Origin: Yoonia sp. SS1-5
GTDB lineage: Bacteria > Pseudomonadota > Alphaproteobacteria > Rhodobacterales > Rhodobacteraceae
NCBI RefSeq assembly: GCF_038443705.2
Contig: NZ_CP151767.2
Location: 1,426,001-1,490,000, forward strand
Direction: 5' to 3'
DNA: 64,000 nt
Positions 24,229-55,703 of this stretch are shown in pieces (position 1 is the stretch's first letter; every line of letters begins with the position of its first letter). The notes beneath the pieces were generated by a model that had not been told where the DNA came from, ran no database searches, and saw only the letters and a program-made list of their open reading frames with translations. The translations under genes and the position numbers were made by a program.

Positions 24229-24490
24229 CGCCGCTAGAGCCAGCGACGTCGCGATGCGGTCTGTTACCGATATGCACCGATCCATTCTAACCCTAGCAGG
24301 CAGATGGGGCCACCGGGAACGCGATCTCTCAAATTTGCATGTCGTGACCTGCGATCAGGTTGCGACGCGGCATGCCTCTATTTCATGACCGCGCGATTTC
24401 AAGCTTCCGCCCTATGCCGTCCTGCAGCGCGATCAACTTAACAACCCGTCACCCATTCCCAACGGCCCCGTCGCGCGCTATGTGCCGCCC

Positions 24491-25879
24491 ATGACCCAGA
24501 ACCCACCCAATCTCCGCCCCGACCTCGCAAACGCGCAGATCACCGAGCAACGTCGCGATGGCCAGCCGACCATCGGCATGGTCTCCCTCGGCTGTCCCAA
24601 GGCGCTGGTCGATAGTGAACGCATCCTCACGCGTCTCCGGGCCGAGGGCTATGCAATCTCACCCGACTATGCGGGCGCCGAGGCCGTGATCGTCAACACC
24701 TGCGGATTTTTGGACTCAGCCAAGGCTGAAAGCCTCGATGCGATTGGCGAGGCGCTGCAGGAAAACGGCAAGGTCATCGTGACGGGCTGTCTGGGGGCCG
24801 AACCGGACTATATCCGCGAACACCACCCGCAAATCCTCGCCGTGACAGGCCCGCATCAATATGAACAGGTGCTCGACGCGGTACACGCCAATGTGCCGCC
24901 CGCCCCGGACCCGTTCATCGACCTGCTGCCCGCCAGCGGCGTGTCCCTGACCCCGCGCCACTACAGCTATCTGAAGATTTCCGAAGGCTGTAACCACAAA
25001 TGCAAGTTCTGCATCATCCCCGACATGCGCGGCAAACTGGCCAGCCGCCCGGCCCATGCGGTGCTGCGCGAGGCTGAAAAACTGGTCGAGGCCGGGGTCA
25101 AGGAACTGCTGGTCATCAGTCAGGATACCTCTGCCTACGGGCTGGACCGGAAATACGATGTGAACCCTTGGCGCGACGGCGAGGTGCGCAGCCACATCAC
25201 CGACCTGACCCGCGAGTTGGGCAGCCTCGGCGCCTGGGTGCGCCTGCACTACGTCTACCCCTACCCCCATGTGCGCGATCTAATCCCGCTCATGGCGGAC
25301 CCGTCTAACGGCGTGCTGCCCTATCTGGACATCCCATTCCAGCATAGCCACCCCGACGTGCTGCGGCGGATGGCCCGGCCCGCTGCCGGTGCGAAAACCC
25401 TGGACGAAATCGCCCGCTGGCGCAGCGATTGCCCCGATATCACCCTGCGATCGACTTTCATCGTCGGCTACCCGGGCGAGACCGAGGCCGAATTCCAGCA
25501 CCTGCTGGACTGGCTGGACGAAGCCCAACTCGACCGGGTCGGCTGCTTCCAATACGAAAACGTGGACGGGGCACGCAGCAACGCCCTGCCCGATCATGTG
25601 GCCGCTGAGGTCAAACAGGACCGGTGGGAGCGTTTCATGGCCAAGGCGCAAGCCATCTCCGAGGCGAAACTGCAGGCCAAAGTAGGCCGGACGCTAGAGG
25701 TCATCGTGGACGACATCGACGAAGACGGCATCGCAACCTGCCGGACATGGGCGGACGCTCCTGAGATTGATGGGAATTTGTTCATTGATGAAGGGGCTGA
25801 GAGGTTGTCCGTCGGGGATGTGGTGGAGGTCGAGGTTGAGGAAGCGGGAGAGTATGATTTGTGGGGAAGTATGGTTTGA
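24491..25879 (+). CDS. rimO: Ribosomal protein S12 methylthiotransferase RimO
   Basis: 462 residues. It adds a methylthio group to Asp88 of ribosomal protein S12 using two 4Fe-4S clusters. The order is the N-terminal UPF0004 domain ([15 protein letters not shown] with conserved cysteines), the radical-SAM core with GCNHKCKFC (the three cluster cysteines) near residue 159, and the C-terminal TRAM domain. The ATG at 24491 is nine bases inside an upstream GTG; neither has a strong ribosome-binding site. The stop overlaps the TTG start of the Abi_C-type gene. Confidence 0.95.
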
Positions 25880-26236
25880 TAGAAAATGGTGACGACAGCC
25901 TTTTGGACCGCATTCATCGTCTACAGAATGGACTTGTTGCGGAAGCAACTGGTGAAAGCTTTGATGGTGGGGACTCAGAGTACAAGAAGCTCCGTCACGA
26001 AGTCGCAAGTTCTTCTTTGGTGAAAGATCTTGCTCCAGATTTCGTTAGAAGATGTAGTGGTTTGGAACAGTTTTGGGGCTGGATTAAGTACGAAAAACCG
26101 ACCTACGCAGAAAGAAGAAATTTGATCTGGCAGGCGTTTGCTCCCATGATTGAGAGATTAGAATTCGATCAAGTAAGCCCTATCGGACGGGTAACGACCA
26201 AAAAATTGAGAATTCACGGCGGAGCCGACGTTCACG

Positions 26237-26243
26237 CATATTG
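26237..26243. repeat. Target-site duplication, left copy (CATATTG)
   Basis: CATATTG immediately before the IS; the identical seven bases follow the IS at 27424-27430. Confidence 0.9.
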
Positions 26244-27423
26244 TGTAAAACACACGACTTGATCTGACATTTCTGCTCTTCTGGAGCGCAATCAAGGAGT
26301 GTCGATCAATGACAAGTATTCAAGAGAAGATCATCAAGCCGAAGCTGGGGCTGTTGGAACTGGCCAAACAGCTCGGAAGCGTGTCGCAGGCCTGCAAAGT
26401 GATGGGTTATTCGCGGGACAGCTTTTACCGGTTCAGAGAACTTTACGATCAGGGTGGCGAAGAAGCCCTGATGGATCTCAGCCGCCGCAAGCCGGTGATG
26501 AAAAACCGCGTGCCAGAACATGTCGAGAAGGCGGTCATCGAACTGGCCATCGACAACCCGGCTCTGGGTCAGAAACGGGCGTCGTGGGAGCTGCAGCAGA
26601 AAGGCATCATGGTGTCATCGTCGGGCGTCCGGTCGATCTGGCTGCGTAATGATCTGGAAACCATGAAAAAGCGCCTCAAGGCCCTGGAGGCCCGTGCCGC
26701 CCAAGAGGGTATCTTGCTCACCGAGGATCAGTTGGCCGCGCTGGAAAAAGCCAAGGCCAAGAAAGAAGCCCATGGCGAGATCGAGAGCCACCACCCTGGC
26801 TATCTGGGCAGCCAGGACACCTATTATGTGGGCACAATGAAGGGCGTCGGACGCATTTATCAACAGACCTTTGTCGATACCTATGCCCGCGTGGCGATCT
26901 GCAAGCTCTACACTGAAAAGACGGCAATCACCGCGGCCGACTTGCTGAACGACCGCGTGATCCCGTTCTTTGCAGAGCATGAGATCAGCCTGCTGCGCGT
27001 CCTGACAGACCGGGGCACGGAATACTGTGGCAAGGTCGAGAACCACGCCTACCAGCTTTATCTGGCCGTCGAGGACGTGGACCACACCCGAACCAAGGCC
27101 AATTCTCCGCAAACAAACGGCATCTGCGAGCGGTTCCATCGCACCATCAAGGATGAGTTCTACGACATCGCATTCCGCAAGAAACTGTATCGGTCAGTCG
27201 AAGAGTTGCAGGCCGATCTGGATGCGTGGCTGGCAAAGTACAACGAACAGCGGCCACATTCGGGACGTCACTGCTATGGCAAAACACCTATGCAGACCTT
27301 CCGCGAAACGCTACACATCGCTGTCGAGAAGACGATCAAAACGCACGACCAATCGGACAGTGCGCAACCCGTTCTCAGCGTCGCAAGCTGAGATGTCCGT
27401 CAGATCAAGTCTGAAGTTTTACA
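26244..27423 (+). mobile_element. IS481-family insertion sequence, copy 1
   Basis: 1180 bases. The ends are inverted repeats beginning TGTAAAAC: 25 bases with 21 matches, sharing GACTTGATCTGAC. A seven-base direct repeat CATATTG flanks it, so this is a simple transposition into the Abi_C-type gene. One transposase gene fills it. The second copy at 38281-39460 has the same length and looks identical in sequence, including the transposase protein, so movement was recent. Confidence 0.93.
26309..27391 (+). CDS. IS481-family transposase
   Basis: 360 residues. An N-terminal helix-turn-helix region (LGLLELAKQLGSVSQACKVMGYSRDSFYRF) binds the ends; the integrase-like catalytic core follows with candidate DDE residues D170 (GSQDTYYVG), D234 (LTDRGTEY) and E274 (NGICERFH). 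The C-terminal NEQRPHSGRHCYGKTPMQTF is typical of IS481/IS3-like integrase cores. A single intact frame without frameshift; AAGGAG precedes the ATG. The same protein is encoded by copy 2. Confidence 0.95.
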   Translation: MTSIQEKIIKPKLGLLELAKQLGSVSQACKVMGYSRDSFYRFRELYDQGGEEALMDLSRRKPVMKNRVPEHVEKAVIELAIDNPALGQKRASWELQQKGIMVSSSGVRSIWLRNDLETMKKRLKALEARAAQEGILLTEDQLAALEKAKAKKEAHGEIESHHPGYLGSQDTYYVGTMKGVGRIYQQTFVDTYARVAICKLYTEKTAITAADLLNDRVIPFFAEHEISLLRVLTDRGTEYCGKVENHAYQLYLAVEDVDHTRTKANSPQTNGICERFHRTIKDEFYDIAFRKKLYRSVEELQADLDAWLAKYNEQRPHSGRHCYGKTPMQTFRETLHIAVEKTIKTHDQSDSAQPVLSVAS

Positions 27424-27430
27424 CATATTG
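27424..27430. repeat. Target-site duplication, right copy (CATATTG)
   Basis: Second copy of the seven-base target duplication of IS copy 1. Confidence 0.9.
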
Positions 27431-27815
27431 GGACAAAGCAATCACCCGAGTCCCAAATGATCCTGAAGGTGCGATTACCATGGCAAGGACGCTTTTGGAG
27501 GCCACCTGCAAAGCAATTCTGAACGACCTGAAAATTGATTACTCGAACAAAGAAGACATACCTAAGTTGTGGGCGAGGTGTAGCGAAGCTCTAAATCTAA
27601 GTCCGAGCCAGCACCACGAAACAGTCTTCAAAACGATACTTGGCAATTGCACTTCCATTGTCGCAAATATCTCTTCGCTCCGAAATAAGCTCGGTGATGC
27701 ACATGTCGATCAACCAAAGCCAGTACGGCCCAAGCCACGTCACGCTTCTCTTGCGGTAAATCTTGCAGGCACAATGGCGGCTTTTGTCACCGAAACGTGG
27801 CAAGCACACAAATAA

Positions 27816-28264
27816 AGTATTTCTCAGTCCCTATTTGATGGATTCACTCAAGCTCTTGTCCCGCCCGGCATCGCCGGGCAGCGCCCGGACCTCCCCCATG
27901 GGGAGGGCGCTTCGCACCCGCCCCGAGGTCCAGACGCTCCCCTCATGTTGCGCGAAACATCAGCCACAGCGATCTTGGAAATTTAGAAAGGCCATTCTGT
28001 GACAAGAGCACCCGGGCCAGGTCTCCGACCGTTTTTGGCTGAAAAGGTCCACTGGACCTATTCCGAGACGCCTCAAACCCTCCCCCATGGGGGGGCATGT
28101 TGCGGGTAACATCGGCACCCCCTGGGCTCCGCCCGTGAGAACCTGAATTGATCCCCCGGACCAATTCCGAGACGGTTCTCACCCGCGACGTCCAGACGCT
28201 CCCCCCATGTGCCGCGCTACACTGGCGATAGTTGACGCGGTGCTGAGTTCGGCCGTTGCACACA
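27816..28264. other. Repeat-rich spacer behind the Abi_C-type gene
   Basis: 449 bases without a credible gene. It holds a 71-base dispersed hairpin repeat (27861-27931), two copies of a 42-base degenerate repeat starting GAGGTCCAGACGCTCCCC (27925-27966) and GACGTCCAGACGCTCCCC (28187-28228), and an intervening partial copy with ATGTTGCGGGTAACAT at about 28098. Short dyads ATGTT-N6-AACAT recur in them. Nothing else is visible. Confidence 0.6.
27861..27931 (-). repeat. Dispersed hairpin repeat, copy A
   Basis: Its reverse complement matches 55634-55703 with about five differences in 71 bases. It contains a near-palindrome centred on CCCCATGGGG and a hairpin GCCCGGC-GAT-GCCGGGC. In the other copy the stem is the same while the loop is TTT, so the stem is conserved and the loop is not. 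It lies 45 bases behind the Abi_C-type gene. Confidence 0.75.
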
Positions 28265-28750
28265 TCATCTCCCAGGCTGGATCTGACCGGACCGACGCGC
28301 AGCGCGGTGGCTTTCGGGCGACATGATCTCGAATGCCCAAAGGCCCTGCCCGGCAAGGGCAGCTGCCTTTTCGGCCAGGGCATATCGGTCGGAATAGCGC
28401 AGATAGGCCCGCGCAAGGCCCTGATCGACCAGCACCATGCCAATATCGGCGCCGCCCGTGGCACAGGACGCAACGACCCGGCCATATCGGTCCCGATCAT
28501 GTGCGGTACACTGGGCATGTTGCCCCTCATACAGCGCCTGCACCGCCGCTTTGGCCCATCGACCACAATCCATCTGCTGCGTTCCCGTGTTACAGGGCTG
28601 ACCCAGCTCGGGCGCGTCAATACCGTGCAGGCGCACCCTGACCTGCCCGACATCAAATGTGTCCGCATCAATCACATGGATAGGCCCTTCAAGGGCTGCC
28701 GAAGCCGCCGGGCTGAACGAGGCAAGCAAGAGAGCCAGAATAAATCGCAT
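28265..28750 (-). CDS. Secreted thermonuclease (SNase-like)
   Basis: 161 residues. Residues 1-18 are a signal peptide (RFILALLLASFSPAASA), so it acts outside the cytoplasm. The staphylococcal nuclease OB-fold follows: VIDADTFDVGQVRVRLHGIDAPE with metal-ligand Asp and catalytic Arg, then RDRYGRVVASC with the second Arg, and LARAYLRYSDRY. Four cysteines are likely disulfide-bonded. It degrades DNA or RNA. It stands alone between the repeat-rich spacer and betA. Confidence 0.9.
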   Translation of the reverse strand: MRFILALLLASFSPAASAALEGPIHVIDADTFDVGQVRVRLHGIDAPELGQPCNTGTQQMDCGRWAKAAVQALYEGQHAQCTAHDRDRYGRVVASCATGGADIGMVLVDQGLARAYLRYSDRYALAEKAAALAGQGLWAFEIMSPESHRAARRSGQIQPGR

Positions 28751-28813
28751 ACCCCCATCTAGGGTGCGAAGAGGGTCCAGTGCAACAAAATCGTAAGACT
28801 TGGTTAAGCTTTT

Positions 28814-30472
28814 TTAACGTTGGCTGTTCTGCCAGTCAGGGTGGATCCACGGGGCATCATTGGCCCGCGGCAAGGGATGTCGCTGCAACACGTGATCGGC
28901 CACTTTTTCGCCCACCATGATGGATGGGGCGTTGAGGTTCCCGTTGGTGATACGCGGAAAGATCGAGCTATCCGCAACCCGCAGCCCATCGACGCCAATG
29001 ACCCGTGCCTGCGCATCGACAACGGCAAGCGGGTCGTCGGTGGCCCCCATCTTGCAGGTCCCGCAAGGATGATACGCGCTTTCGACATGTTCCCTTATGA
29101 ACGCATCCAACGCCTCGTCACTTTGGGCGGCCTCACCTGGCTGGATCTCGTGACCGCGAAACGCATCAAATGCGGGCTGGGCAAAGATTTCGCGCGTCAG
29201 GCGAATACAGGTGCGGAACTCTTCCCAATCCTGCGGGTGCGACATGTAGTTGAATTCAATACGTGGATCATCCAGCGGATCGGCAGACCGCAACGTGACC
29301 TGCCCGCGTGACAAGGATCGCATCGGCCCGACATGCGCCTGAAATCCGTGCCCTTCAGGGGCCACCTTGCCATCATAGCTGACCGCGATGGGCAGAAAAT
29401 GAAACTGGATATCCGGATAGTCGATCCCAGCCCGAGAGCGGATGAACCCCGCGCTTTCAAACTGGTTGGAGCTGCCAAGGCCGGTTTTCCACAGCAGCCA
29501 TTCCAGCCCGATCTTGGCCTTGCCACGCAGGTTCCAATAGGAAAACAGCGAAACCGGCTTGGTCGCGGCCTGCTGGATATACAGTTCCAGATGATCCTGC
29601 AGATTTTGCCCGACCCCGGGCCGGTCTGCCACGACGTCAATCCCGTGTTCGGCCAGATGCGTCGCAGGACCGATGCCAGACAACATCAACAGCTTGGGCG
29701 AATTCAGCGATGAGGCCGCAACGATCACCTCGACATTGGCCCTGATGAACTCGATCTTGCTGCCGCGGCTGACCTCAACCCCGACGGCGCGCCCGTCCTC
29801 AATAACGATCCGTCGTGCCAGCGCGCGGGTGATCCGGCAGTTTGGGCGCTTGAGGGCGGGACGCATATAGGCATTTGCCGCCGACCAACGGCGCCCTTTG
29901 TAGATTGTCGCATCAAACGGGCCAAAACCCTCTTGCTGCGCGCCGTTATAGTCGCCGGTCACCGGATACCCCGCTTGCGCGCCGGCCTCGACAAAGGCAC
30001 GGGTCAACGGGTTCTTGCGCGGGCCGCGAGTGACATGCAGCGGGCCGTCTGTTCCGCGCCATGCCGGATCGCCGCCATGGCCACCATCGTGCCAATGCTC
30101 CATCCGCTTGAAATAGGGCAACACATCCGCATAGGCCCAGCCATCGGCACCGCTTTCAGCCCAATGGTCAAAGTCCCTGGCATGGCCACGCACATAGATC
30201 ATCCCGTTGATTGACGATGATCCGCCAATCACCTTGCCGCGCGGCGTGACCAATTGGCGCCCGCCCAGATGCGGTTCGGGTTCCGACTTCAGCCCCCAAT
30301 CATACATCTTCATGTTCATTGGATAGGACAGTGCGGCAGGCATCTGGATGAAAGGCCCGGCATCACTGCCACCATATTCGATGACCAGCACCTGTTTGCC
30401 TGCCTCGGCAAGTCTGTACGCCATGGCGCACCCTGCCGAACCGGCACCGATAATGACATAATCTGCCTGCAT
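28814..30472 (-). CDS. betA: Choline dehydrogenase
   Basis: 552 residues, a GMC-family FAD oxidoreductase. [22 protein letters not shown] at residue 4 is the FAD Rossmann motif and [22 protein letters not shown] the GMC signature; the C-terminal [10 protein letters not shown] carries the conserved active-site histidine region. It oxidises choline to betaine aldehyde. The start follows the betB stop directly. It is the last gene of betI-betC-betB-betA, a complete route from choline sulfate to glycine betaine. Confidence 0.96.
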
Positions 30473-31930
30473 TTAGAAAGGCGCCTCGACATCGCCCATG
30501 GCGACATAGACGCCCTTGAGCTGGCTGTAATGTTCGATCGCCGCCTTGGAATTCTCGCGCCCGACCCCTGATTTCTTGGATCCACCAAACGGGGCCTCGA
30601 CGGGGGCCAGATTATAGGTGTTGATGTAACAAGTGCCCGCTTCGAACCCCGCAACCATGCGGTGCGCCCGGGTCAGGTCGGCCGTAAACACACCGGCGGC
30701 AAGGCCAAATTCCGTGGCATTGGCGCGGGCCAGCACCTCGTCTTCCGTGTCGAAATCCAGCACCGACATGACCGGGCCAAAGATTTCGTCACGCGCAATC
30801 GTCATGTCGTCGGTGACATCTGCAAAAACGGTCGGTTCCAGAAAGAAGCCCGTGTCACCGGCCCGTTTGCCCCCGGTGACAAGTGTGGCGCCTTCAGCGA
30901 TGCCTTTTTCAATGAAACCTTCCACGATGTCGCGCTGCCGCGCTGATACCATTGGGCCGAAATTCACGGTTTCATCCAGTGGGTCACCCATTTTGACGCC
31001 AGCGAGCCGCTCGGTCAGGCGCTTCAGAAACGCGGCCTTGATGCCCTTTTGCACAAAAACCCGCGTCCCGTTGGAACAGACCTGCCCCGAGGAATAAAAG
31101 TTCCCCAAGATCGCGCCGGATACGGCGTTTTCAACATCCGCATCGTCAAAAATCACAAGCGGTGATTTCCCGCCAAGTTCCATCGTCACGTGCCGGATAC
31201 CGGCGGCGGCGGCGGCATAGACTTTTTGGCCGGTCGGCACTGACCCGGTCAATGACACCTTGTCCACACGTGGATCGGTGATCAATGCATTCCCGACCTC
31301 GCCCATGCCTTGCACCACATTGTAAATCCCTGCAGGCCCGCCGGCCTCGTGCAGGATTTCGGCAACTTTCAACGCGCAAAGCGGGGTTGTCTCGGATGGT
31401 TTGAAAATCATGGCATTGCCGCAGGCAAGCGCCGGGGCGCCTTTCCAGCAGGCAATCTGGGTCGGGTAATTCCACGCACCGATGCCGACGCAAACGCCCA
31501 GCGGCTCGCGCCGGGTATAGACGAAATCATCCCCCAGCTGAATATGTTCACCGGTCAGGCTGGCGGCCAGACCGCCAAAATATTCCAACGCATCCGCACC
31601 CGAGGTCGCATCGGCCACCAGCGTTTCCTGCAGCGGTTTGCCTGTGTCCTCAGTCTCAAGCACGCTGAGTTCGTGGTTGCGCGCGCGCATGATGTCGGCG
31701 GCCCGGCGCAAGACGCGGCCGCGTTCTGTTCCGGTCATCGCAGCCCATTCCACCTGGGCGCGCTTTGCGGATGCAATCGCCATTTCGACAATCGCAGGCG
31801 TGGCCGCATGAACGGTTGCAATCACCTTTTCGGACATCTGGCAGATGACCGGGATCGGCGTGCCGTCCGTGTCGTCGACATATTGACCGTCGATAAAGTG
31901 GCTGGCGGTTGGTTGAACGGGATAGCGCAT
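30473..31930 (-). CDS. betB: Betaine aldehyde dehydrogenase
   Basis: 485 residues, normal for BetB. Rossmann-fold NAD domain with [15 protein letters not shown] and GSVPTGQKV; catalytic Glu in MELGGKSP and catalytic Cys in [13 protein letters not shown]. It oxidises betaine aldehyde to glycine betaine. The ATG at 31930 is preceded by GAGGGGAATAAT. The gene abuts betC (one base between) and betA. Confidence 0.96.
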
Positions 31931-31931
31931 A

Positions 31932-33440
31932 TTATTCCCCTCTTGGGAAGCGTTGGTTTTCTTCGAGAACATTCAGGTCCATGTGATTGCGCATGTAGCG
32001 CTCGGATGCTTTTTGCAGCGGCTGATAGTCCCACGGGTAATAGCTGCCATTGCGCAGCGCCTCGTAGACCACCCAACGGCAGGCCTGTGACTGGCGCACC
32101 GCGGCGTCGAACGCGTCAAGATCCCAGCGGGCCTCGGATTTTGCGCGCAGTTGGGTAACGGTTCCCTGATGGGCCGGCACCTCTGCAAGGTTGGTCAATT
32201 CGTGGGGGTCAGCCTCAAGATCGTAAAGCTGGTCAGGATCAAGCGCGCAGCGCGTGTATTTCCATTTGCCGTATCGCAGGCAAACCAGCGGCGCAAAGCT
32301 CGCCTCGGCTGCGTATTCCATCGCAACAGGCGCCGTGCGCGTCCCGCCTTGGCCCAGATGTACAAGGCTTTCACCGGTGGTCCAGAGCGTCACCGCGGTC
32401 ATATCAACACCTGCCAGTTCACATAGCGTGGGTGTCACGTCGATATTACTGACGGGGGTTGTGTTCAGGCCGGGTTCCATCTGGGGCGAGGCGATCATCA
32501 GCGGCACCCGCGCCGATCCTTCATAGAAGGACATCTTGAACCAGAGACCCCGCTCACCCAGCATGTCCCCATGATCCGAGACAAAAAGGATCGTGGCCTC
32601 TTGTCTGGTATCGTCAAGCGTCTGCAGCACTTCGCCGATCTTGTCGTCAAGATAGGATATGTTGGCGAAATAGGCGCGCCGCGCCCGTTTGATATGATCG
32701 TCGGTAATATTGAAATTATCGCGATCATTGGCGTCAAGGATCCGCTGGGAATGCGCATCATGGTCGGCATAGGGGATCGGCCCCACCGCAGGCATCAGAT
32801 GGTCACAATCGGCGTAGAGGTCCCAGTATTTCTTGCGCGCCACGTATGGATCATGCGGATGGGTGAAGCTGACGGTCAGGCACCAGGGCCGATCATCATG
32901 GCCACGGGACAGATCATAAAGCTTGCGGACAGCGTTATAGGCAACCTCGTCATCATATTCCATCTGGTTGGAAATCTCGGCGATGCCCGCGCCGGTCACT
33001 GATCCCATATTGTGATACCACCAGTCGATCCGTTCGCCGGGTTTGCGGTAATCCGGGGTCCAGCCGAAATCCGCGGGATAGATATCGGTTGTCAGCCGTT
33101 CTTCGAACCCGTGCATCTGATCGGGGCCGACAAAATGCATCTTGCCTGACAGGCAGGTCTGATAGCCCGCCCGACGCAGATGGTGCGCGTAGGTCGGGAT
33201 GGATGAGGTAAATTCGGCCGCGTTGTCGTAAACCCCGGTCCGCGACGGCAAGAGGCCGGACATGAACGACGCCCGACCGGGCGCGCAAAGCGGCGATGCG
33301 GTATAACTGTTTGCAAACCGGGTGGATCGTGCGGCCAGCTTTTTCAGGTTTGGCGCATGCAGCCAATCTGCCGGGCCATCTGGAAAGAAGGTCCCATTCA
33401 GTTGATCGACCATGATGATCAGAATATTCGGGGCCGTCAT
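31932..33440 (-). CDS. betC: Choline sulfatase
   Basis: 502 residues, type I sulfatase of the alkaline phosphatase superfamily. The sulfatase signature [13 protein letters not shown] places the formylglycine-forming cysteine at residue 52; IIMVDQLNG and SDHGDMLGE supply metal ligands. The C-terminal region has the extra segment ([27 protein letters not shown]) typical of BetC. It releases choline and sulfate from choline O-sulfate. It overlaps betI by four bases. Confidence 0.95.
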
Positions 33441-34021
33441 TGGGCACCCCCCCTTAATTCGGCGCGCAGCAATGTGATGGCGTGTTCGGTCGCATCGCCG
33501 CTTGCATTTGCATCACGCGCAAGGCCTTGCCGCAGATAGAGACCGTCGATCAGCCCCGCGATCCGGTGCGCGGCGCCGACCGCCCTTGCACCGATCAAGG
33601 GGCGCAGGTCAAAGACAAGGTTGCTGTGCAAACGTCGCTGATAGACCGATAGCAATCGCTGCGCGTCCGGCGATGATTGGGCGAGGACATAAAAATTCAA
33701 CCACGCCGCGATCACCTCGCGCCGAAAGTTCGAACTGGTAAAGCTGGCGCGGATCACCGCCTCTAGCCGGGATTGCGGCCCATCCGCCATCGCCAGCGCG
33801 CCGCGGACCTCTGCCCCATATAGCGTCAATGTATGACGCATGGCTGCCAGAAAAATCTGATCTTTCCCGCCAAAATAGTGATGTGCCAGCGCCGAAGACA
33901 TCCCGGCCCGCTTGGCAATTTTGCTGACAGTCACGTCCAACGACCCAACTGCCCCGATTTCGTCAATCGTGGCTTTCACTAAGGCGGCGCGGCGGATAGG
34001 TTCCATCCCAAGCTTTGGCAT
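33437..34021 (-). CDS. betI: TetR-family repressor BetI
   Basis: 194 residues. The start MPKLGMEPIRRAALVKATIDEIGAVGSLDVTVSKIAKRAGMSSALAHHYFG is the BetI helix-turn-helix region. I chose the second of two adjacent ATGs (34021), which has GAGG at the better distance. BetI represses bet genes until choline is present. It is the first gene of the betICBA run and is divergent from choX; a perfect dyad at 34067-34080 is the likely operator. Confidence 0.94.
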   Translation of the reverse strand: MPKLGMEPIRRAALVKATIDEIGAVGSLDVTVSKIAKRAGMSSALAHHYFGGKDQIFLAAMRHTLTLYGAEVRGALAMADGPQSRLEAVIRASFTSSNFRREVIAAWLNFYVLAQSSPDAQRLLSVYQRRLHSNLVFDLRPLIGARAVGAAHRIAGLIDGLYLRQGLARDANASGDATEHAITLLRAELRGGAQ

Positions 34022-34066
34022 CATGTCCTCACACGAGACTTGCAAAAGCAAAGTAGATGTTTCTTT

Positions 34067-34080
34067 ATTGACTCGTCAAT
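34067..34080. promoter_or_regulatory. Probable BetI operator
   Basis: ATTGAC-TC-GTCAAT, a perfect six-base dyad with two-base spacer in the 88-base divergent region between betI and choX. TetR repressors bind such dyads, and its place allows control of both transcription units. Binding is inferred. Confidence 0.65.
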
Positions 34081-34109
34081 CAAGAAAAAATGACAAACGG
34101 GAGACGATT

Positions 34110-35033
34110 ATGAACTTGAGAAATACCCTTTCCGCGCTGGCAATTTGTGCGGCAGCGCCCGCATTGGCCGACTGCGACACTGTTACATTCTCTGACGTGG
34201 GCTGGACGGACATCACTGCGACAACCGCCGCCACATCCGTTGTGCTTGAGGCACTCGGATACGAGACCGATATCAAGGTCCTGTCCGTGCCGGTGACATA
34301 TATTTCCCTTGCCGAAGGTGATGTGGATGTCTTTCTGGGCAACTGGATGCCCACAATGGAAGGCGATATTGCCCCCTACCGTGAAGCCGGCACTGTCGAT
34401 ACGGTTCGCGCCAATCTGGAAGGCGCAAAATATACGCTGGCCGTGAACAAGGCCGCCGCTGATATGGGCATCGCGGATTTCGCCGATCTGGCGGCAAATG
34501 CTGATGCGCTTGAAGGCAAGATCTACGGGATCGAGCCCGGCAATGACGGTAACCGCCTGATCATGGATATGATTGCGGCAAATGCATTTGACCTGGAAGG
34601 CTTTGAAGTTGTCGAAAGCTCTGAACAGGGCATGCTGGCGCAGGTTGACCGCGCCTCTGGCCGGGACGAGCCGATTGTGTTCCTCGGCTGGGAACCACAT
34701 CCGATGAACGCCAATTTCGAGATGTCCTACCTGACCGGTGGCGACGACTGGTTTGGCCCGAACCTGGGCGGTGCGACCGTTTACACCAACACAACCGCGG
34801 GCTACGCAGACAGCTGCCCGAATGTGGGTAAGCTTTTGAATAACCTTGAATTCTCGCTTGCGATGGAAAACGAGATCATGGGCGCCATCCTCAATGACGG
34901 TGAAGAGCCTTCGGATGCGGCCAAGGCATGGCTTGCGGCAAATACCGACGCCATGATGCCATGGCTTGACGGTGTGACGACCAAGGATGGCGGCGACGCG
35001 GTCGAAGCTGTCAAAGCCGTTCTGGCCGAATAA
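34110..35033 (+). CDS. choX: Choline ABC transporter, substrate-binding protein
   Basis: 307 residues with a signal peptide ending after about residue 20 (LSALAICAAAPALA), so it is periplasmic. The mature part starts DCDTVTFSDVGWTDITATTA, matching the OpuAC/ChoX fold, with aromatic ligand residues such as NWMPTMEG and GWEPHPMN that form the choline box. The ATG at 34110 follows GGGAGA. It is the first gene of choXWV, read away from betI. Confidence 0.95.
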   Translation: MNLRNTLSALAICAAAPALADCDTVTFSDVGWTDITATTAATSVVLEALGYETDIKVLSVPVTYISLAEGDVDVFLGNWMPTMEGDIAPYREAGTVDTVRANLEGAKYTLAVNKAAADMGIADFADLAANADALEGKIYGIEPGNDGNRLIMDMIAANAFDLEGFEVVESSEQGMLAQVDRASGRDEPIVFLGWEPHPMNANFEMSYLTGGDDWFGPNLGGATVYTNTTAGYADSCPNVGKLLNNLEFSLAMENEIMGAILNDGEEPSDAAKAWLAANTDAMMPWLDGVTTKDGGDAVEAVKAVLAE

Positions 35034-35042
35034 TCTGACTTT

Positions 35043-35071
35043 GGCAGGTCCCCGTCTAACGGGGGCTTGCC
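35043..35071 (+). promoter_or_regulatory. Intercistronic hairpin choX-choW
   Basis: GGCAGGTCCCCG, loop TCTAA, CGGGGGCTTGCC: a 12-base-pair stem with two G-U pairs between choX and choW. Such hairpins after the binding-protein gene commonly stabilise or attenuate so that binding protein exceeds membrane components. Inferred. Confidence 0.5.
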
Positions 35072-35090
35072 ACGACGACGGGGGGCGCCG

Positions 35091-35924
35091 ATGAATTGGC
35101 TGACTGACAACAAAATACCAATCGGCAAATGGGCGAAATCCGTCTTCGACTGGATGAACAACAATCTGGCTTTCTTTTTCGACTGGCTGTCGGACATGAT
35201 GGAGGCCCTGATCGACGGGATCCTCTGGGTTCTGGAAACCCCCCACCCCTTCATTGTCATCGGTGTTTTCGCCGCCCTGACATGGGCGCTGCAACGCAGC
35301 TGGAAGACCCCGCTATTTATTGTCTTGGGTTTCCTGTTCATTCTCAATCAGGACTATTGGGAAGAAACCATGCAGTCCCTGACCCTGGTTCTGTCCGCCT
35401 GTGTGGTGTGCATGGGCGTTGGCGTCCCAATCGGGATCGCGGCGGCGCACAGACCCCGGCTGTATCGCGCAATGGTGCCGGTGCTTGACCTGATGCAGAC
35501 CTTGCCAACATTTGTCTACCTGATCCCTGCGATCGTGTTTTTCGGGATCGGCATGGTGCCGGGACTGATTGCGACGGTGATTTTTGTCCTGCCCGCCCCG
35601 ATCCGGCTGACCTATCTGGGGGTCTCGTCAACGCCAACGCCCCTGCTCGAGGCCGCGCAAGCCTTTGGGGCCACCAAGCGGCAGGTGCTGTTCAAGGTCG
35701 AACTGCCCTCGGCCTTGCCACAGATCATGGCCGGGCTGAACCAGACCATCATGCTATCACTGTCGATGGTCGTGATCGCGGCACTTGTCGGGGCCAGCGG
35801 GCTTGGGGTGCCGGTGATCCGGGCGCTCAATACAGTCAACACATCGCTTGGTTTTGAAAGCGGTTTTGTCATCGTGGTCGTGGCGATCATGCTTGACCGG
35901 ATGCTGCGGGTGAAATCAAAATGA
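35091..35924 (+). CDS. choW: Choline ABC transporter, permease
   Basis: 277 residues with about six hydrophobic segments, beginning after a polar N-terminus (NWLTDNKIPIGKWAKSVFDW). The EAA loop for the ATPase is EAAQAFGATKRQVLFKVELPSALPQI near residue 190. The ATG at 35091 follows GGGGGGCGCCG. It overlaps choV by four bases. Confidence 0.94.
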   Translation: MNWLTDNKIPIGKWAKSVFDWMNNNLAFFFDWLSDMMEALIDGILWVLETPHPFIVIGVFAALTWALQRSWKTPLFIVLGFLFILNQDYWEETMQSLTLVLSACVVCMGVGVPIGIAAAHRPRLYRAMVPVLDLMQTLPTFVYLIPAIVFFGIGMVPGLIATVIFVLPAPIRLTYLGVSSTPTPLLEAAQAFGATKRQVLFKVELPSALPQIMAGLNQTIMLSLSMVVIAALVGASGLGVPVIRALNTVNTSLGFESGFVIVVVAIMLDRMLRVKSK

Positions 35925-36934
35925 GTGCTGTTGAATTTGACAACGTGTCCATCGTGTTCGGGGCCCGGCCGCAAAGCGCGCTGCCCCTGATGGATGAGGG
36001 GCTGGAAAGGCCGGAAATCCGCGAACGGACAGACCAGATCCTTGGGGTGCATGACTGCAAGCTGACCGTCGAGGAAGGCGAAATTCTGGTGCTGATGGGG
36101 CTCTCGGGCTCGGGCAAATCCACGCTTTTGCGGGCGGTGAACGGGTTGAACCCGGTCGTGCGCGGCGACGTGCGGATCAAGACCAGCGCGGGCATGACAT
36201 CGGTGACCCATGCAGACGCAAAGACCCTGCGCAATCTGCGCCTGCGCGATGTGGCCATGGTGTTTCAGCAATTCGGCCTGCTGCCCTGGCGCAGCGTGCG
36301 GGACAATGTGGGCCTTGGGCTGGAACTGGGCGGTATGGAAAAATCCGCGCGGCTCAAACGGGTCGATGAGGAACTGGCGCTGGTGGGGCTGGCCGACCGG
36401 GCCGATGCGCTGGTGGGCGAGCTTTCGGGGGGCATGCAGCAACGTGTGGGCCTGGCCCGGGCCTTTGCTACCGATGCGCCGATCCTTTTGATGGACGAAC
36501 CGTTTTCTGCCCTGGACCCGCTGATCCGGACCAAGTTGCAGGATGAATTGCTGGACCTGCAGGCCGAACGAAACCGGACCATCATCTTTGTCAGCCACGA
36601 TCTGGACGAGGCATTCAAGATCGGCAACCGCATCGCCATCATGGAGGGTGGGCGCATCGTGCAATGCGGCACCCCGCGCGATATCTTTACCAACCCGGCC
36701 AATGAATATGTGGCGGATTTTGTGGCCCATATGAACCCGCTGGGGGTTTTGACCGCACATGACGTGATGATCCCGGGGCAAACCGATGGGCCGGCGATTG
36801 ATGTGAACACACCCGTGCAGGACATCATCGAACAGATTGAGACAACGCCTCTGCAGGTCACTGATAACGGCGCGCCGGTCGGACAGATCACGCAAAGCTC
36901 GCTTCTGGCCCGACTGGCCCCGCCGACCGACTAG
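35921..36934 (+). CDS. choV: Choline ABC transporter, ATP-binding protein
   Basis: 337 residues. Walker A GLSGSGKST near residue 60, Q-loop VFQQFGLLPW, signature LSGGMQQRVGLARA, Walker B ILLMDEPFSALDPL, and the His switch SHD. The C-terminal 90 residues are a short regulatory extension in the position of the CBS region of ProV/OpuAA but reduced in length. It energises choline uptake and completes choXWV. Confidence 0.95.
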   Translation: MSAVEFDNVSIVFGARPQSALPLMDEGLERPEIRERTDQILGVHDCKLTVEEGEILVLMGLSGSGKSTLLRAVNGLNPVVRGDVRIKTSAGMTSVTHADAKTLRNLRLRDVAMVFQQFGLLPWRSVRDNVGLGLELGGMEKSARLKRVDEELALVGLADRADALVGELSGGMQQRVGLARAFATDAPILLMDEPFSALDPLIRTKLQDELLDLQAERNRTIIFVSHDLDEAFKIGNRIAIMEGGRIVQCGTPRDIFTNPANEYVADFVAHMNPLGVLTAHDVMIPGQTDGPAIDVNTPVQDIIEQIETTPLQVTDNGAPVGQITQSSLLARLAPPTD

Positions 36935-37015
36935 GGCCCAGGTCTGGAAATCCGGATATTGACGGTGATGCTGCATTGCAGCGACATTGCCGGCATTTAT
37001 ATCAGGAGAATTTTC

Positions 37016-37372
37016 ATGCTTGGCCCATTTGACATCTGGTCTCCTATCATCCGCGCCCCGTTTTCAGGCGACGTAACACAAGAGATCACCCCCCGGGTGT
37101 TTTCCCCCGAAATCAAAGGCAACGCCCGGATCGAACACCGGATCCAGACCGAGGTTGCCAGCTACGGCGCGCAGCTAGGCAAAGTGCTTGAGGCGCTGCA
37201 GGTACTGGCCGCACAATCAGGCACCGCCCTGCCCGACATCGACGCGCTGGTAGCTGACGTCGAAGCGGTCAAACATGACGCGCGGGATGCGCTGCGCGAA
37301 GAGGCCGAAACCGCCCTCGCGCGGCTCAAATCGGCGGACCCTGACGGCTGGGCCGAAGTGATCAGACAATAG
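37016..37372 (+). CDS. Unknown alpha-helical protein
   Basis: 118 residues from the ATG at 37016, with an ideal AGGAGAA six bases upstream. MLGPFDIWSPIIRAPFSGDVTQEITPRVFSPEIKGN, then a long Ala/Glu/Leu-rich helix with heptad character (QLGKVLEALQVLAAQ, DALVADVEAVKHDARDALREEAETALARLKS). No signal or membrane segment. It follows choV in the same direction by 81 bases. The family is not recognised. Confidence 0.65.
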   Translation: MLGPFDIWSPIIRAPFSGDVTQEITPRVFSPEIKGNARIEHRIQTEVASYGAQLGKVLEALQVLAAQSGTALPDIDALVADVEAVKHDARDALREEAETALARLKSADPDGWAEVIRQ

Positions 37373-37454
37373 GCGAGGTCAGAAACGTCGCAAGGCACAG
37401 CCCGCCCATAACGATCAGAAAGCAATGTGGAAGAAAACGCATGTGATGCCCCAT
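37362..37454 (-). CDS. Possible 30-residue membrane peptide
   Basis: MGHHMRFLPHCFLIVMGGLCLATFLTSPIV, a single hydrophobic segment with a short polar start, convergent with and overlapping the end of the preceding gene by 11 bases. An internal ATG gives a 26-residue form with GATGGGG upstream. Too short to be sure. Confidence 0.3.
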   Translation of the reverse strand: MGHHMRFLPHCFLIVMGGLCLATFLTSPIV

Positions 37455-37776
37455 CGGTGTGTGATGGGGGTGATACGGGCGGGGCGGCGGTTTCCGTCGC
37501 TATTGCTTTTCCAAAAGGATTTGGATGGCGGGACCCTCTGACAACGCGGGGGACGCAGGACCGCGGAAATGATCGCCCTCTGGCGCGTTCGAGGCCTGCG
37601 ATCCAGGTGGTGCACGTGGCGGAGGCATCCGCCGCTCCACCGGGACGAAATAGGAGGAGTGGGGGACGTCAGGCGTGGTGCACAGACGGCATCTCATGGG
37701 GTGCGATCCATCTAATACGTAGGGTGGGTGAAACCCACGCAACGAACGGTTAACCATCTTTTGACACCAATGGGAC
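37455..37776. other. Non-coding stretch before the REP-associated transposase
   Basis: 322 bases. It holds the REP hairpin at 37719-37742 and otherwise no convincing gene: the plus-strand frame 37427-37753 has a composition unlike a protein, a GTG-like start and no ribosome-binding site. Confidence 0.5.
37719..37742. repeat. REP-like hairpin upstream of the transposase
   Basis: CGTAGG followed by GTGGGT-GAA-ACCCAC and GC. It shares GTAGG and the TGGGTnAAACCCA core with the copies at 17461 and 61932, and sits 34 bases before the RAYT gene. Confidence 0.7.
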
Positions 37777-38235
37777 ATGTCACGTTACCGCCGACTCTAC
37801 GTACCGGGAGGTACATATTTCTTCACGGTCACATTGGCCGACCGAACAGCCACAACGCTGGTGGATGAAATTGGTCTGCTGCGTTCGGTCTACGCGTCAG
37901 TGATCCGAGAACATCCCATCAAATGCGAAGCGATGGTGATCCTGCCCGATCACATACATGCCGTCTGGACCTGGCCCGAAGGCGACGCCGATTTTTCTAT
38001 CCGCTGGAAAAAGATCAAGGGGCGGTTCTCGCAACATTGTCGCGCCAAAGGCACGCCATCACGCAGCAAGGCGGCAAAGGGAGAAAAAGGCATTTGGCAA
38101 CGACGGTTTTGGGAACACGCAATCCGTGGGCCGGAAGATTTACAGGCGCACATGCATTATTGTTGTTGGAACCCAGTCAAACACGGGTTAGTCGAAAGGC
38201 CCGAAGAGTGGCCCTATTCGTCATTCCGTAGGTGA
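37777..38235 (+). CDS. REP-associated tyrosine transposase (RAYT)
   Basis: 152 residues of the Y1/HUH transposase family: GGTYFFTVTLADR at the start, the metal-binding HxH in ILPDHIHAVW (H59, H61), and the catalytic tyrosine at about Y129 in HMHYCCWNPVKHGLV. It nicks single-stranded DNA at REP hairpins. REP-like hairpins flank it at 37719 and 38227, the latter overlapping its stop codon, as expected for a domesticated RAYT with its REP partners. Confidence 0.88.
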   Translation: MSRYRRLYVPGGTYFFTVTLADRTATTLVDEIGLLRSVYASVIREHPIKCEAMVILPDHIHAVWTWPEGDADFSIRWKKIKGRFSQHCRAKGTPSRSKAAKGEKGIWQRRFWEHAIRGPEDLQAHMHYCCWNPVKHGLVERPEEWPYSSFRR

Positions 38236-38246
38236 AACCCACGCGA
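38227..38246. repeat. REP-like sequence at the transposase 3' end
   Basis: CGTAGGTGAAACCCACGCGA, a shortened form of the upstream REP (37719), overlapping the RAYT stop codon. Confidence 0.6.
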
Positions 38247-38280
38247 GGGGAGAAATGGATGGGGTGGTGATGATTTGAGG

Positions 38281-39460
38281 TGTAAAACTTCAGACTTGAT
38301 CTGACGGACATCTCAGCTTGCGACGCTGAGAACGGGTTGCGCACTGTCCGATTGGTCGTGCGTTTTGATCGTCTTCTCGACAGCGATGTGTAGCGTTTCG
38401 CGGAAGGTCTGCATAGGTGTTTTGCCATAGCAGTGACGTCCCGAATGTGGCCGCTGTTCGTTGTACTTTGCCAGCCACGCATCCAGATCGGCCTGCAACT
38501 CTTCGACTGACCGATACAGTTTCTTGCGGAATGCGATGTCGTAGAACTCATCCTTGATGGTGCGATGGAACCGCTCGCAGATGCCGTTTGTTTGCGGAGA
38601 ATTGGCCTTGGTTCGGGTGTGGTCCACGTCCTCGACGGCCAGATAAAGCTGGTAGGCGTGGTTCTCGACCTTGCCACAGTATTCCGTGCCCCGGTCTGTC
38701 AGGACGCGCAGCAGGCTGATCTCATGCTCTGCAAAGAACGGGATCACGCGGTCGTTCAGCAAGTCGGCCGCGGTGATTGCCGTCTTTTCAGTGTAGAGCT
38801 TGCAGATCGCCACGCGGGCATAGGTATCGACAAAGGTCTGTTGATAAATGCGTCCGACGCCCTTCATTGTGCCCACATAATAGGTGTCCTGGCTGCCCAG
38901 ATAGCCAGGGTGGTGGCTCTCGATCTCGCCATGGGCTTCTTTCTTGGCCTTGGCTTTTTCCAGCGCGGCCAACTGATCCTCGGTGAGCAAGATACCCTCT
39001 TGGGCGGCACGGGCCTCCAGGGCCTTGAGGCGCTTTTTCATGGTTTCCAGATCATTACGCAGCCAGATCGACCGGACGCCCGACGATGACACCATGATGC
39101 CTTTCTGCTGCAGCTCCCACGACGCCCGTTTCTGACCCAGAGCCGGGTTGTCGATGGCCAGTTCGATGACCGCCTTCTCGACATGTTCTGGCACGCGGTT
39201 TTTCATCACCGGCTTGCGGCGGCTGAGATCCATCAGGGCTTCTTCGCCACCCTGATCGTAAAGTTCTCTGAACCGGTAAAAGCTGTCCCGCGAATAACCC
39301 ATCACTTTGCAGGCCTGCGACACGCTTCCGAGCTGTTTGGCCAGTTCCAACAGCCCCAGCTTCGGCTTGATGATCTTCTCTTGAATACTTGTCATTGATC
39401 GACACTCCTTGATTGCGCTCCAGAAGAGCAGAAATGTCAGATCAAGTCGTGTGTTTTACA
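38281..39460 (-). mobile_element. IS481-family insertion sequence, copy 2 (inverted)
   Basis: 1180 bases, same terminal repeats and same transposase as copy 1 but on the other strand. The bases next to it, TTTGAGG on the left and TATCATC on the right, do not match, so no target duplication is present. This implies loss or rearrangement of a flank after insertion. The right flank is the lepA relic. Confidence 0.92.
38313..39395 (-). CDS. IS481-family transposase (copy 2)
   Basis: 360 residues, identical over its full length to the transposase of copy 1, with the same helix-turn-helix and candidate catalytic residues D170, D234 and E274. AAGGAG precedes the ATG. Intact, so it could supply transposase for both copies. 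Confidence 0.95.
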   Translation of the reverse strand: MTSIQEKIIKPKLGLLELAKQLGSVSQACKVMGYSRDSFYRFRELYDQGGEEALMDLSRRKPVMKNRVPEHVEKAVIELAIDNPALGQKRASWELQQKGIMVSSSGVRSIWLRNDLETMKKRLKALEARAAQEGILLTEDQLAALEKAKAKKEAHGEIESHHPGYLGSQDTYYVGTMKGVGRIYQQTFVDTYARVAICKLYTEKTAITAADLLNDRVIPFFAEHEISLLRVLTDRGTEYCGKVENHAYQLYLAVEDVDHTRTKANSPQTNGICERFHRTIKDEFYDIAFRKKLYRSVEELQADLDAWLAKYNEQRPHSGRHCYGKTPMQTFRETLHIAVEKTIKTHDQSDSAQPVLSVAS

Positions 39461-39476
39461 TATCATCGTTCATAAA

Positions 39477-39855
39477 TCAATCGTCCACTTTCAACGCAGG
39501 GGTGAATGCCTCCTGCGGGATATCAACTCTCCCGAACTGCCGCATCTTTTTATTCCCCGCCTTCTGCTTGTCCAGCAGTTTGCGTTTCCGCGTGGCGTCC
39601 CCGCCGTAGCATTTCGCCGTCACGTCTTTGCGCAGCGCTGAAAGCGTTTCGCGCGCGATGACTTTGCCGCCATCCGCTGCATAGATCGGGGTTTTGAACA
39701 TGTGGCGCGGGGTGAGGTCTCTGCGCCTTTCGACCACACTCCGCCCCACATCTCGGCCCGTTTCCGGTGCGCCATCATCGACGGTGCCTCGCCTATTCTC
39801 GATAGCGGTGAAGCGTTCTGCCCAACGGTCTGGAACACCGGCCCCGAAAAGAGGC
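39477..39855 (-). pseudogene. Decayed 3' fragment of lepA
   Basis: On the minus strand the last 60 or so codons read [39 protein letters not shown], matching the LepA C-terminus with few changes, then KVDD and a stop. Further upstream the match continues in another frame ([11 protein letters not shown] against [11 protein letters not shown] in LepA) and fades near 39855, so it has at least one frameshift and no start. The intact lepA is at 22429-24228. The fragment ends 17 bases from IS copy 2, so the copy and the IS are probably linked by one rearrangement. Confidence 0.85.
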
Positions 39856-39918
39856 TCACAGCAACACTGTGTTTTGTGCTATCGCTGACCCACCACAATC
39901 CAGCGAAAGGTTTCCCCT

Positions 39919-40158
39919 ATGCCAGACCCCAAAATTGCCCAAAAGGCGCCGTTTCCTGTCGATGTCGAAGAGGGCAAAGCCTATTTCTGGTGTTCTTGCG
40001 GGCAATCGGCGAACCAGCCCTTTTGTGATGGCTCTCACAAAGGCACGGATTTCGCCCCGGTAAAGTTTGAGGCCACGGAAACCAAGACCGTGTTTTTTTG
40101 CGGCTGCAAGCATTCAGACGCGCCCGTGACCTGCGACGGGACGCATCACAAGCTCTGA
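39919..40158 (+). CDS. CDGSH iron-sulfur domain protein
   Basis: 79 residues with two CDGSH-type motifs: CSCGQSANQPFCDGSH (about residues 25-40) and CGCKHSDAPVTCDGTH (about 61-76). Each Cys3-His set can hold one 2Fe-2S cluster. These small proteins take part in electron transfer or iron-sulfur handling. The 3' end overlaps the convergent IMPACT-family gene by 13 bases. Confidence 0.92.
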   Translation: MPDPKIAQKAPFPVDVEEGKAYFWCSCGQSANQPFCDGSHKGTDFAPVKFEATETKTVFFCGCKHSDAPVTCDGTHHKL

Positions 40159-40508
40159 CAATCCGCGGCATCAAGATAGACCCGCACCGCATCCTGCACC
40201 CGCCGGAACCGGTCGCCGCCCAGTTTGGTTCCTCCAAACCAGCGCGTGACCACGATGATGTGCCCGGTTATATCCTCGCGTTCCAGCATACGCAGGATCA
40301 CCATGCCTGCGCCGCTTTCGCCATCGTCGTTCTTTACAGGCCCGTCGGGCAAGATGACGGCCCAACTGTTGTGGGTCGCCCGGGCGAATTTCTTTTTGCG
40401 GCATAAGCTTTTGACAAAGGCCTTCGCCTCGTCAACAGATCCAACCGGCCCGCCGGAGACCGCGTATTTCGACCCCCGATCGGTCAGCGCATTTTCGATG
40501 ATCTTCAG
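40146..40508 (-). CDS. IMPACT/YigZ-family protein with a non-standard start
   Basis: About 120 residues: LKIIENALTDRGSKYAVSGGPV, KKFARATHNSWAVILPDGPVKNDDGESGAGMVILRMLERE, then VVTRWFGGTKLGGDRFRRVQDAVRVYL. The DGEp/SGAGmvIL and RWFGGxxLGGdRF blocks are the UPF0029/IMPACT fold (YigZ N-terminal part). An in-frame stop lies at 40521-40523 and no ATG, GTG or TTG occurs before the middle of the domain. CTG at 40508, at the place where homologues begin, is the best start; a TTG at 40352 would lose half the domain. It could be a recently damaged gene. Confidence 0.65.
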   Translation of the reverse strand: MKIIENALTDRGSKYAVSGGPVGSVDEAKAFVKSLCRKKKFARATHNSWAVILPDGPVKNDDGESGAGMVILRMLEREDITGHIIVVTRWFGGTKLGGDRFRRVQDAVRVYLDAADCQSL

Positions 40509-54888: not shown

Positions 54889-55620
54889 TTGGATGACGCG
54901 GAAAGAAGGGCTGAGCAGCTCCTAGCCTCGTTCGATATTGGAACCTTTGCATATGAGCCCTTGGGACAGCGCAGCCCTGATTTTGGCCTTGATGATCGTA
55001 TAGCAGTCGAAGTTACACGACTGACAAAAGAGACAAATGTAGAACGCGAGCACATCATAATTGATTCTGATGAGGTACCAATTCGCCAAATCGTCGGAAC
55101 TGCAATTAGTAGTTTCGACGGCTCCGCGTGCACCAGGTCGGCTTTCGTCAACTACCGGTTTAGACGCCCGCTTCAGCGGCAGGACTTACGCACGACGCTG
55201 CGCGACTTCTTGGACAATGCGCTAAAGCACGAAATAGCGGAAACACATCCTACTCAAGTTTGCCGCGGCTTTTGGGTCGATCTCAAGCGAGGGAAACATC
55301 GACCTGGCCGACCATTCATCGAAGGTGCGTCAAACGACAGCGATAGAAGTGGCTGGCTAGTACCGGACATGCTGCGCAACGTTTCCAGAATTGCTGCGAT
55401 TAAGCAGAATAAGGCTATGGATGCCCAACGTCAGTACCTCGAATGGTGGTTGTTTTTGGAGAACCGTCTCAGCTACCGACTAGACGTAGAAGCACTGAGC
55501 GAGTTTCGAGCAACCATTCGTCCAAACAGCTTTTGGACGAAGTGTGTTGCGTTCGACCCGCGCGATCCGCTGCAATACGAATTCCTATGGGATCTTTCCG
55601 ATCAACATATCAGAACATAG
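54889..55620 (+). CDS. Unknown accessory protein, possible nuclease fold
   Basis: 243 residues. The start is TTG at 54889, four bases after the carB stop, with GGGG seven bases upstream. SPDFGLDDRIAVEVTRL near residue 29 has the D-x6-E-x-T spacing reminiscent of a PD-(D/E)XK core, but the lysine is replaced and the rest is not recognised. Tryptophan- and Arg-rich helices follow. It is AT-richer than carB, suggesting acquisition. The shared hairpin repeat follows 13 bases after the stop. Confidence 0.6.
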   Translation: MDDAERRAEQLLASFDIGTFAYEPLGQRSPDFGLDDRIAVEVTRLTKETNVEREHIIIDSDEVPIRQIVGTAISSFDGSACTRSAFVNYRFRRPLQRQDLRTTLRDFLDNALKHEIAETHPTQVCRGFWVDLKRGKHRPGRPFIEGASNDSDRSGWLVPDMLRNVSRIAAIKQNKAMDAQRQYLEWWLFLENRLSYRLDVEALSEFRATIRPNSFWTKCVAFDPRDPLQYEFLWDLSDQHIRT

Positions 55621-55633
55621 CAGGCCGGTGCCC

Positions 55634-55703
55634 GGACCTCGGGGTGGGTGCGAAGCGCCCTCCCCATGGGGGAGGTTCGGGCGCTGCCCGGCTTTGCCGG
55701 GCG
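55634..55703 (+). repeat. Dispersed hairpin repeat, copy B
   Basis: Matches the reverse complement of 27861-27931 with about five differences. Contains the CCCCATGGGG near-palindrome and the hairpin GCCCGGC-TTT-GCCGGGC. It lies 13 bases behind the unknown gene after carB, as copy A lies behind the Abi_C-type gene after rimO. Confidence 0.75.

Follow-up and report, generated by a model that had tools for sequence, protein, structure and literature searches.

A probable AbiJ-like cargo gene of a single-gene slot behind rimO in Yoonia, broken by a recent IS481 insertion

In Yoonia sp. SS1-5, a gene of the Abi_C family begins at the very stop codon of the core gene rimO and is cut in two by an insertion sequence (IS) of the IS481 family, which raises the question of what this gene was and why it sits there. 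The window in which it lies is the whole stretch of 64,000 nucleotides analysed here (contig NZ_CP151767.2, positions 1,426,001 to 1,490,000), and its coordinates are used throughout unless a locus of another contig is named. Our data indicate that the gene is probably the AbiJ-like cargo of a probably coupled single-gene slot, whose occupants would most likely be exchanged by recombination in the flanks, and that it was broken by a recent arrival of IS481. An earlier reading made from the sequence alone had recognised the gene and its insertion and is supported to that extent, but it overlooked that the position is a hypervariable single-gene slot.

A single frame behind rimO, split by IS481

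The features that matter here, from left to right, are the following.

24482..25879, forward strand: rimO, a core gene; its stop codon forms the left border of the slot (Pfam UPF0004, Radical_SAM, TRAM_2)
25876..26243, forward strand: N-terminal piece of the Abi_C gene, with a TTG start over the rimO stop; aligns to the N-terminal half of intact relatives
26237..26243: CATATTG, left copy of the 7-bp target duplication
26244..27423, forward strand: intact IS481-family element of 1180 bp, one of 25 identical copies in the genome
26309..27391, forward strand: IS481 transposase of 360 aa (NCBIfam NF033577, E 8.9e-88)
27424..27430: CATATTG, right copy of the 7-bp target duplication
27426..27815, forward strand: C-terminal piece of the Abi_C gene (Abi_C E 6.8e-19; PADLOC AbiJ E 2.8e-21)
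27681..27704, forward strand: codons of RNKLGDAH, a HEPN-type R-N-x5-H motif
27862..27945, forward strand: palindromic element right of the slot

In order to examine continuity, the two pieces were left unjoined, and the translation of each was set against 240 relatives. The C-terminal piece matched all 240 and the N-terminal piece, which has a guanine-plus-cytosine (GC) content of about 46%, matched 180; in these 180 the pieces meet at the shared, duplicated Tyr codon, with no offset in 130 and an offset of a single residue in 50. The insert together with one duplication measures 1187 nt, which is 2 modulo 3 and equals the shift from the frame at 25876 to that at 27426, and the rebuilt protein has 122 + 129 - 1 = 250 aa. 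This confirms one reading frame behind rimO, split by the IS481 insertion, just as the sequence-only reading had rebuilt it by removing the element and one CATATTG copy. The TTG at 25876 overlaps the rimO TGA (25877-25879), as had also been proposed, and an in-frame GTG at 25861 is an alternative start.

The element belongs to IS481 by its transposase, which scores 294.5 bits against the NCBIfam model (cut-off 224), by its inverted ends and by its target duplication. Its outer ends read TGTAAAAC...GTTTTACA (26244-27423), and the inverted arms at 26242-26268 and 27399-27425 agree at 85% over 27 nt. All 25 copies in this genome are 100% identical, indicating a recent spread of the element, and the 7-bp duplication is present at seven of the ten copies whose ends were read and absent at three. 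Together with the perfect duplication in the Abi_C gene, this bears out the view of a clean insertion and shows that it entered the frame recently. Another identical copy lies in the window at 38281-39460 on the minus strand, without a target duplication; directly before it is a 152-aa open reading frame (ORF) at 37777-38235, which we take to resemble a REP-associated HUH transposase.

The second half of the rebuilt protein was expected to be an Abi_C domain, and the Pfam search suggested at the time does find it in the C-terminal piece (PF14355, E 6.8e-19, 68.2 bits against a curated cut-off of 24). The N-terminal half, which had been left nameless, matches no Pfam family at E <= 1 and no PADLOC model at E <= 0.01. 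A structure model of a relative shows a HEPN-like fold in the C-terminal half; R207, N208, D212 and H214 of the R-N-x5-H motif are conserved at 90% or more, and an R-polar-x4-6-H pattern occurs somewhere in 237 of the 240 relatives. The modelled fold and the motif point to a HEPN domain, and the broken gene is thus predicted from fold, motif and family to have most likely encoded an abortive-infection RNase of the AbiJ type. This supports an interrupted gene of defence type, as the sequence-only reading had it, while the silencing which that reading also supposed is our inference too: the split gene has presumably lost its function.

The family is widespread. An intact relative used as query finds 2255 related proteins at E <= 1e-10, and the C-terminal piece matches 168 plasmid records, all below 60% identity, and four phage records, the best at 53%. 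An uninterrupted counterpart behind rimO, which the earlier reading had proposed to look for in related strains, did not come to light: among 40 genomes of the genus, the C-terminal piece matches only its own, G012, where a different Abi_C protein (35-37% identity) occupies the same rimO position, and G026, where a remote Abi_C relative (L241, 30% over 100 residues) sits behind thyX.

The rimO slot and its counterparts behind pheS and thyX

In order to see what other species carry at this position, we compared 56 congeneric (Yoonia/Loktanella-like) genomes, this one included. The rimO end was found in 52, which leaves 51 loci besides the window, and loci cut within 600 nt behind rimO were set aside (6 of 51 congeneric, 3 of 77 from other genera). 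With cargo defined as an adjoining ORF that measures 100 aa or more and lies 8 or more GC points below rimO, 39 of 45 assessable congeneric loci are occupied, compared to 9 of 74 in other Rhodobacterales. As background, 20 congeneric stretches of 20 kb, placed arbitrarily, contain 352 ORFs, of which only 8 have a GC of 0.515 or less. The cargo falls into 27 families in 40 loci (39 selected cargo ORFs plus the window), 18 of which occur once; this count excludes L181 (GC 0.54), L193 (104 aa) and the second ORF of L064. Twenty-four of the 39 lie on the rimO strand and 15 on the opposite one. In several closely related genomes the flanks agree and the cargo is unrelated, and more distant pairs, such as L043/L051 and L060/L179, share cargo. 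The position behind rimO is a hypervariable single-gene slot.

To the right of the slot, yigZ (UPF0029) was recognised through its own ORF at 25 of the 52 loci and through the ORF antisense to it at 30. In the window, about 12 kb (28265-40487), including an SNase gene, extend from the slot to yigZ (40161-40487, minus strand); by eye, the same interval holds a choline-O-sulfate to glycine-betaine operon.

Cargo identity was addressed with a PADLOC scan at E <= 1e-8 over 37 loci, leaving out L051, L053, L067 and L190 as relatives of scanned loci. Ten of the 37 loci gave matches under nine family names, in addition to the C-terminal piece of the window:

L039: FRG protein PDC-S15
L040: AbiJ
L041: PD-Lambda-5
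L042 and L066: SduA
L044: bSEFIR
L047: PDC-M36A
L058: PD-T7-5
L063: PDC-S57
L068: HNH restriction type

By family match, many different defence families thus share one core-gene position, as in a defence hotspot. No match better than 4.5e-4 was seen among 100 non-slot genes of the same loci, drawn from 187 that are each common to at least two loci (one of the 100 is the second cargo of G004). Two of the eight low-GC genes from the arbitrary stretches also match at 1e-8, and we have set aside a PADLOC match as general proof of defence. The rimO slot is thus richer in defence-family genes than its surroundings, with no excess demonstrated over other low-GC genes; what distinguishes the slot is that most species keep such a low-GC gene at this place. 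One diverged family occupies the rimO slot of five species (L178, L186, L188, L191, L065). It has no PADLOC match better than 0.0086 and, in the four loci covered by the Pfam scan (all but L191), no Pfam name above cut-off, which makes it a candidate unknown defence family.

A GC-rich palindrome, matched by a strict pattern, follows within 2.6 kb of rimO in the window and in 12 of 43 other loci; counted within 3 mismatches, it is present at 10 of 52 rimO loci. The same search finds four copies in this genome and, over the 56 genomes, 99 places in 34 of them, with 1-6 copies per genome and at least 2 in 26; reversed-sequence controls gave none in any genome, and 400 kb of arbitrary congeneric stretches likewise gave none. 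We examined 93 of the 99 contexts (five of the six left out are rimO copies), and a re-scan recovered 90 of these within 3 mismatches; L255, L256 and L278 were not recovered despite an earlier listing at 1-2 mismatches. An ORF with GC of 0.515 or less ends at most 300 nt before 47 of the 90 copies, and in 29 of the 47 it ends 20-49 nt from the 30-base core of the palindrome. The consensus of the 46 copies (of 90) that have the distal half is 82 nt long and folds at -61.9 kcal/mol, and a second sequence type, read by eye (L045 and L053 compared with L056 and L062), keeps a matching outer stem. The remaining 43 of 90 copies lack a low-GC neighbour, and palindromes also stand behind pheS or rimO without cargo (L239, L267, L192), suggesting that the palindrome may be a terminator, which may serve an empty and an occupied slot alike.

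Tracing the palindrome led to the same layout behind pheS and thyX, two genes whose identity was confirmed against the PDB. The loci found in this way number 19 at pheS (16 occupied, 12 families) and 15 at thyX (14 occupied, 14 families), and the exact 4-nt overlap of start and stop codons is seen in 8 of 16 and 10 of 14, respectively. Since these loci are biased by the search itself, pheS was also sampled independently of the palindrome, using the 30 best-matching of 53 loci. Among these best 30 of 53, 20 hold low-GC cargo of 16 families, 19 on the pheS strand; the cargo overlaps the pheS stop by exactly 4 nt in 15 of the 20, and the palindrome stands behind the cargo in 11 of the 20 and about 40 nt behind pheS in 5 of the 10 unoccupied loci. 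This genome is occupied at all three sites: rimO is followed by the broken Abi_C gene, pheS by a gene of 153 aa (L322) and thyX by one of 427 aa (L218), whose product is P-loop-like by eye. Two proteins related to each other (42% over 327 residues) are encoded behind rimO in L055 and behind thyX in L253, and this pair together with the Abi_C relative at thyX in G026 shows that genes of one kind turn up in different slots. The pattern at rimO, pheS and thyX makes the broken gene one occupant of a set of single-gene slots.

Two further copies of the palindrome in this genome were noted. In the window at 54889-55701, a 243-aa gene (GC 0.51) lies directly behind carB, identified by eye, and is followed by a palindrome in opposite orientation (55653-55701); the carB 3' end is a possible further slot. 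Around position 4999 of L217, the palindrome stands between sucB, again by eye, and a 146-aa gene, without low-GC cargo.

How the cargo may be exchanged

In the mechanism that we consider likely, the 250-residue AbiJ-like protein would carry two domains: a helical one at the N terminus, with a probable role in sensing or restraint, and a HEPN domain at the C terminus which, judging by fold, motif and family, probably cuts RNA after phage infection has been sensed. Its broken gene is the current cargo of the single-gene slot at the rimO 3' end. Slots of this kind lie in the genus directly behind at least three core genes, namely rimO, pheS and thyX; each usually holds one low-GC accessory gene, whose start at pheS and thyX mostly overlaps the core-gene stop by 4 nt, and a palindromic element often follows. 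Through this overlap, the guest and the core gene are probably coupled in translation. Cargo is replaced as a unit between lineages, as the comparison of close species shows. The most likely route, weakly tested so far, is homologous recombination within the core gene and the right flank, with DNA supplied for example by a gene transfer agent or by other uptake. Of the 56 genomes, 51, this one among them, contain the GTA_TIM family, a finding that permits rather than demonstrates a gene transfer agent. Finally, IS481 recently entered the cargo and broke its frame, presumably inactivating it.

Whether the rimO 3' end travels with the cargo was also considered. Close pairs hint at joint exchange, yet the signal does not reach significance when compared with five pairs that share their cargo, among which L027/L056 includes a cut locus, and we do not claim it. 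In G004 (L050 5032-6470), a second rimO 3' fragment of 195 nt (77%) immediately precedes another, related cargo gene, which lies behind yigZ; this arrangement fits joint exchange. In G033 (L067 2600-2830), the search found rimO only in its final part, which starts near codon 411 and lies beside a sequence that by eye looks like an IS end; neither G033 nor G010, which also has a rimO fragment, is decisive here. Site-specific phage integration at rimO was rejected, as no viral contig was found to encode a close relative of the rimO end or of the C-terminal piece. An extended DNA site conserved at the 3' end of rimO was rejected as well: over 31 sequences, codon identity in the last full 20-codon block is 0.55, compared to 0.48-0.67 in the other blocks, and only a few codons before the rimO tail (457-459) look constrained.

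The simplest account is plain decay, in which an ordinary abortive-infection gene arrived once behind rimO, was hit by IS481, and the place means nothing. The gene and its IS need nothing more than this, and the Abi_C family is common on chromosomes and plasmids; the site, however, contradicts it through the occupancy of 39/45 against 9/74, the 27 families in 40 loci and the recurrence of the pattern at pheS and thyX, which leaves it highly improbable. Another account is insertion tolerance only, with the 3' ends of rimO, pheS and thyX as harmless, terminator-backed landing places for unrelated elements since stripped of their mobility genes. The palindrome about 40 nt behind the stop at half of the ten unoccupied pheS sites agrees with this, as does rimO hosting large integrated elements in Acidithiobacillus (PMC10322971). 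The cargo, however, is typically one gene rather than the remains of an island, and an exact start-stop overlap that recurs at two sites, pheS and thyX, speaks against it; we regard insertion tolerance as quite doubtful.

A further reading is a distributed system of cassettes, each made of one accessory gene, in part of defence type, and a folded palindromic 3' element, which would be swapped in and out exactly at the stop codon of an essential gene (rimO, pheS, thyX and possibly more). Such cassettes, with the guest translationally coupled to its host gene, would be moved by a putative trans-acting recombinase that acts in an integron-like manner on the palindrome and perhaps also on the end of the core gene. 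The link between a rare palindrome and the end of the cargo, which holds at rimO, pheS and thyX and in the 47 of 90 copies preceded by a low-GC ORF, speaks for such a system, as do the matching outer stem kept by two sequence types and the exact overlap in 25 of 34 occupied pheS and thyX sites. Against it, a Pfam scan restricted to the rimO cargo of 35 loci, with the pheS and thyX cargo and the rest of the genomes outside it, found no integrase, transposase or resolvase family; this genome contains a single exact copy of the 17-bp motif at the rimO end; the palindrome is present at only 10 of 52 rimO loci; and the copies lacking cargo or a low-GC neighbour suggest a terminator. We hold such a cassette system to be unlikely, if conceivable, and favour exchange of the cargo by recombination in the flanks.

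Significance and relation to known systems

These slots offer a cheap route to defence genes that are still unknown, because the gene behind rimO, pheS or thyX is a candidate in each new congeneric genome and most of the cargo scanned at rimO is still without a family name. They also make testable how single accessory genes move without a visible mobile element, and coupling to the stop codon of an essential gene suggests a way to hold a dangerous gene at a low, steady level. Among the matches listed in the open-licence literature, none describes single-gene slots at rimO, pheS and thyX.

Minimal mobile elements of Neisseria are alternative genes between two conserved genes, swapped via flanking homology; the slots reported here differ in extending across species of a marine genus, in the stop-start overlap and in the palindromic border. 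An integron gene cassette consists of a single gene followed by a palindromic site, whereas here no integrase was seen in the rimO cargo of 35 loci, there are no arrays, and insertion is at core-gene stop codons.

The broken gene shares with AbiJ and other Abi_C HEPN proteins (PMC3710099) the C-terminal Abi_C/AbiJ match, the modelled HEPN-like fold, the R-N-x5-H motif and a domain of about 120 residues in front, and differs in that its N-terminal piece matches no Pfam model, which left it without assignment to any of the AbiJ N-terminal domain types (NTD1-5), and that it is split by IS481. Insertion sequences are known to inactivate defence systems, mainly CRISPR-Cas (PMC10359306), while here the gene is of the Abi_C family and the element an IS481. 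In Acidithiobacillus ferrooxidans, rimO is the integration site of elements of 53 and 165 kb (PMC10322971), so that the site is shared and the size is not. Defence hotspots between core genes are likewise already known (PMC10250203, PMC10121019). The cDHS1 and cDHS2 of Pseudomonas aeruginosa (PMC10250203) resemble the rimO slot in holding diverse defence genes of lower GC between fixed core genes with no obvious mobilising element, but they are islands with medians of 26 and 6 kb, whereas the slots described here mostly hold one gene each, frequently with a start-stop overlap, and recur at several core genes with a shared palindrome.
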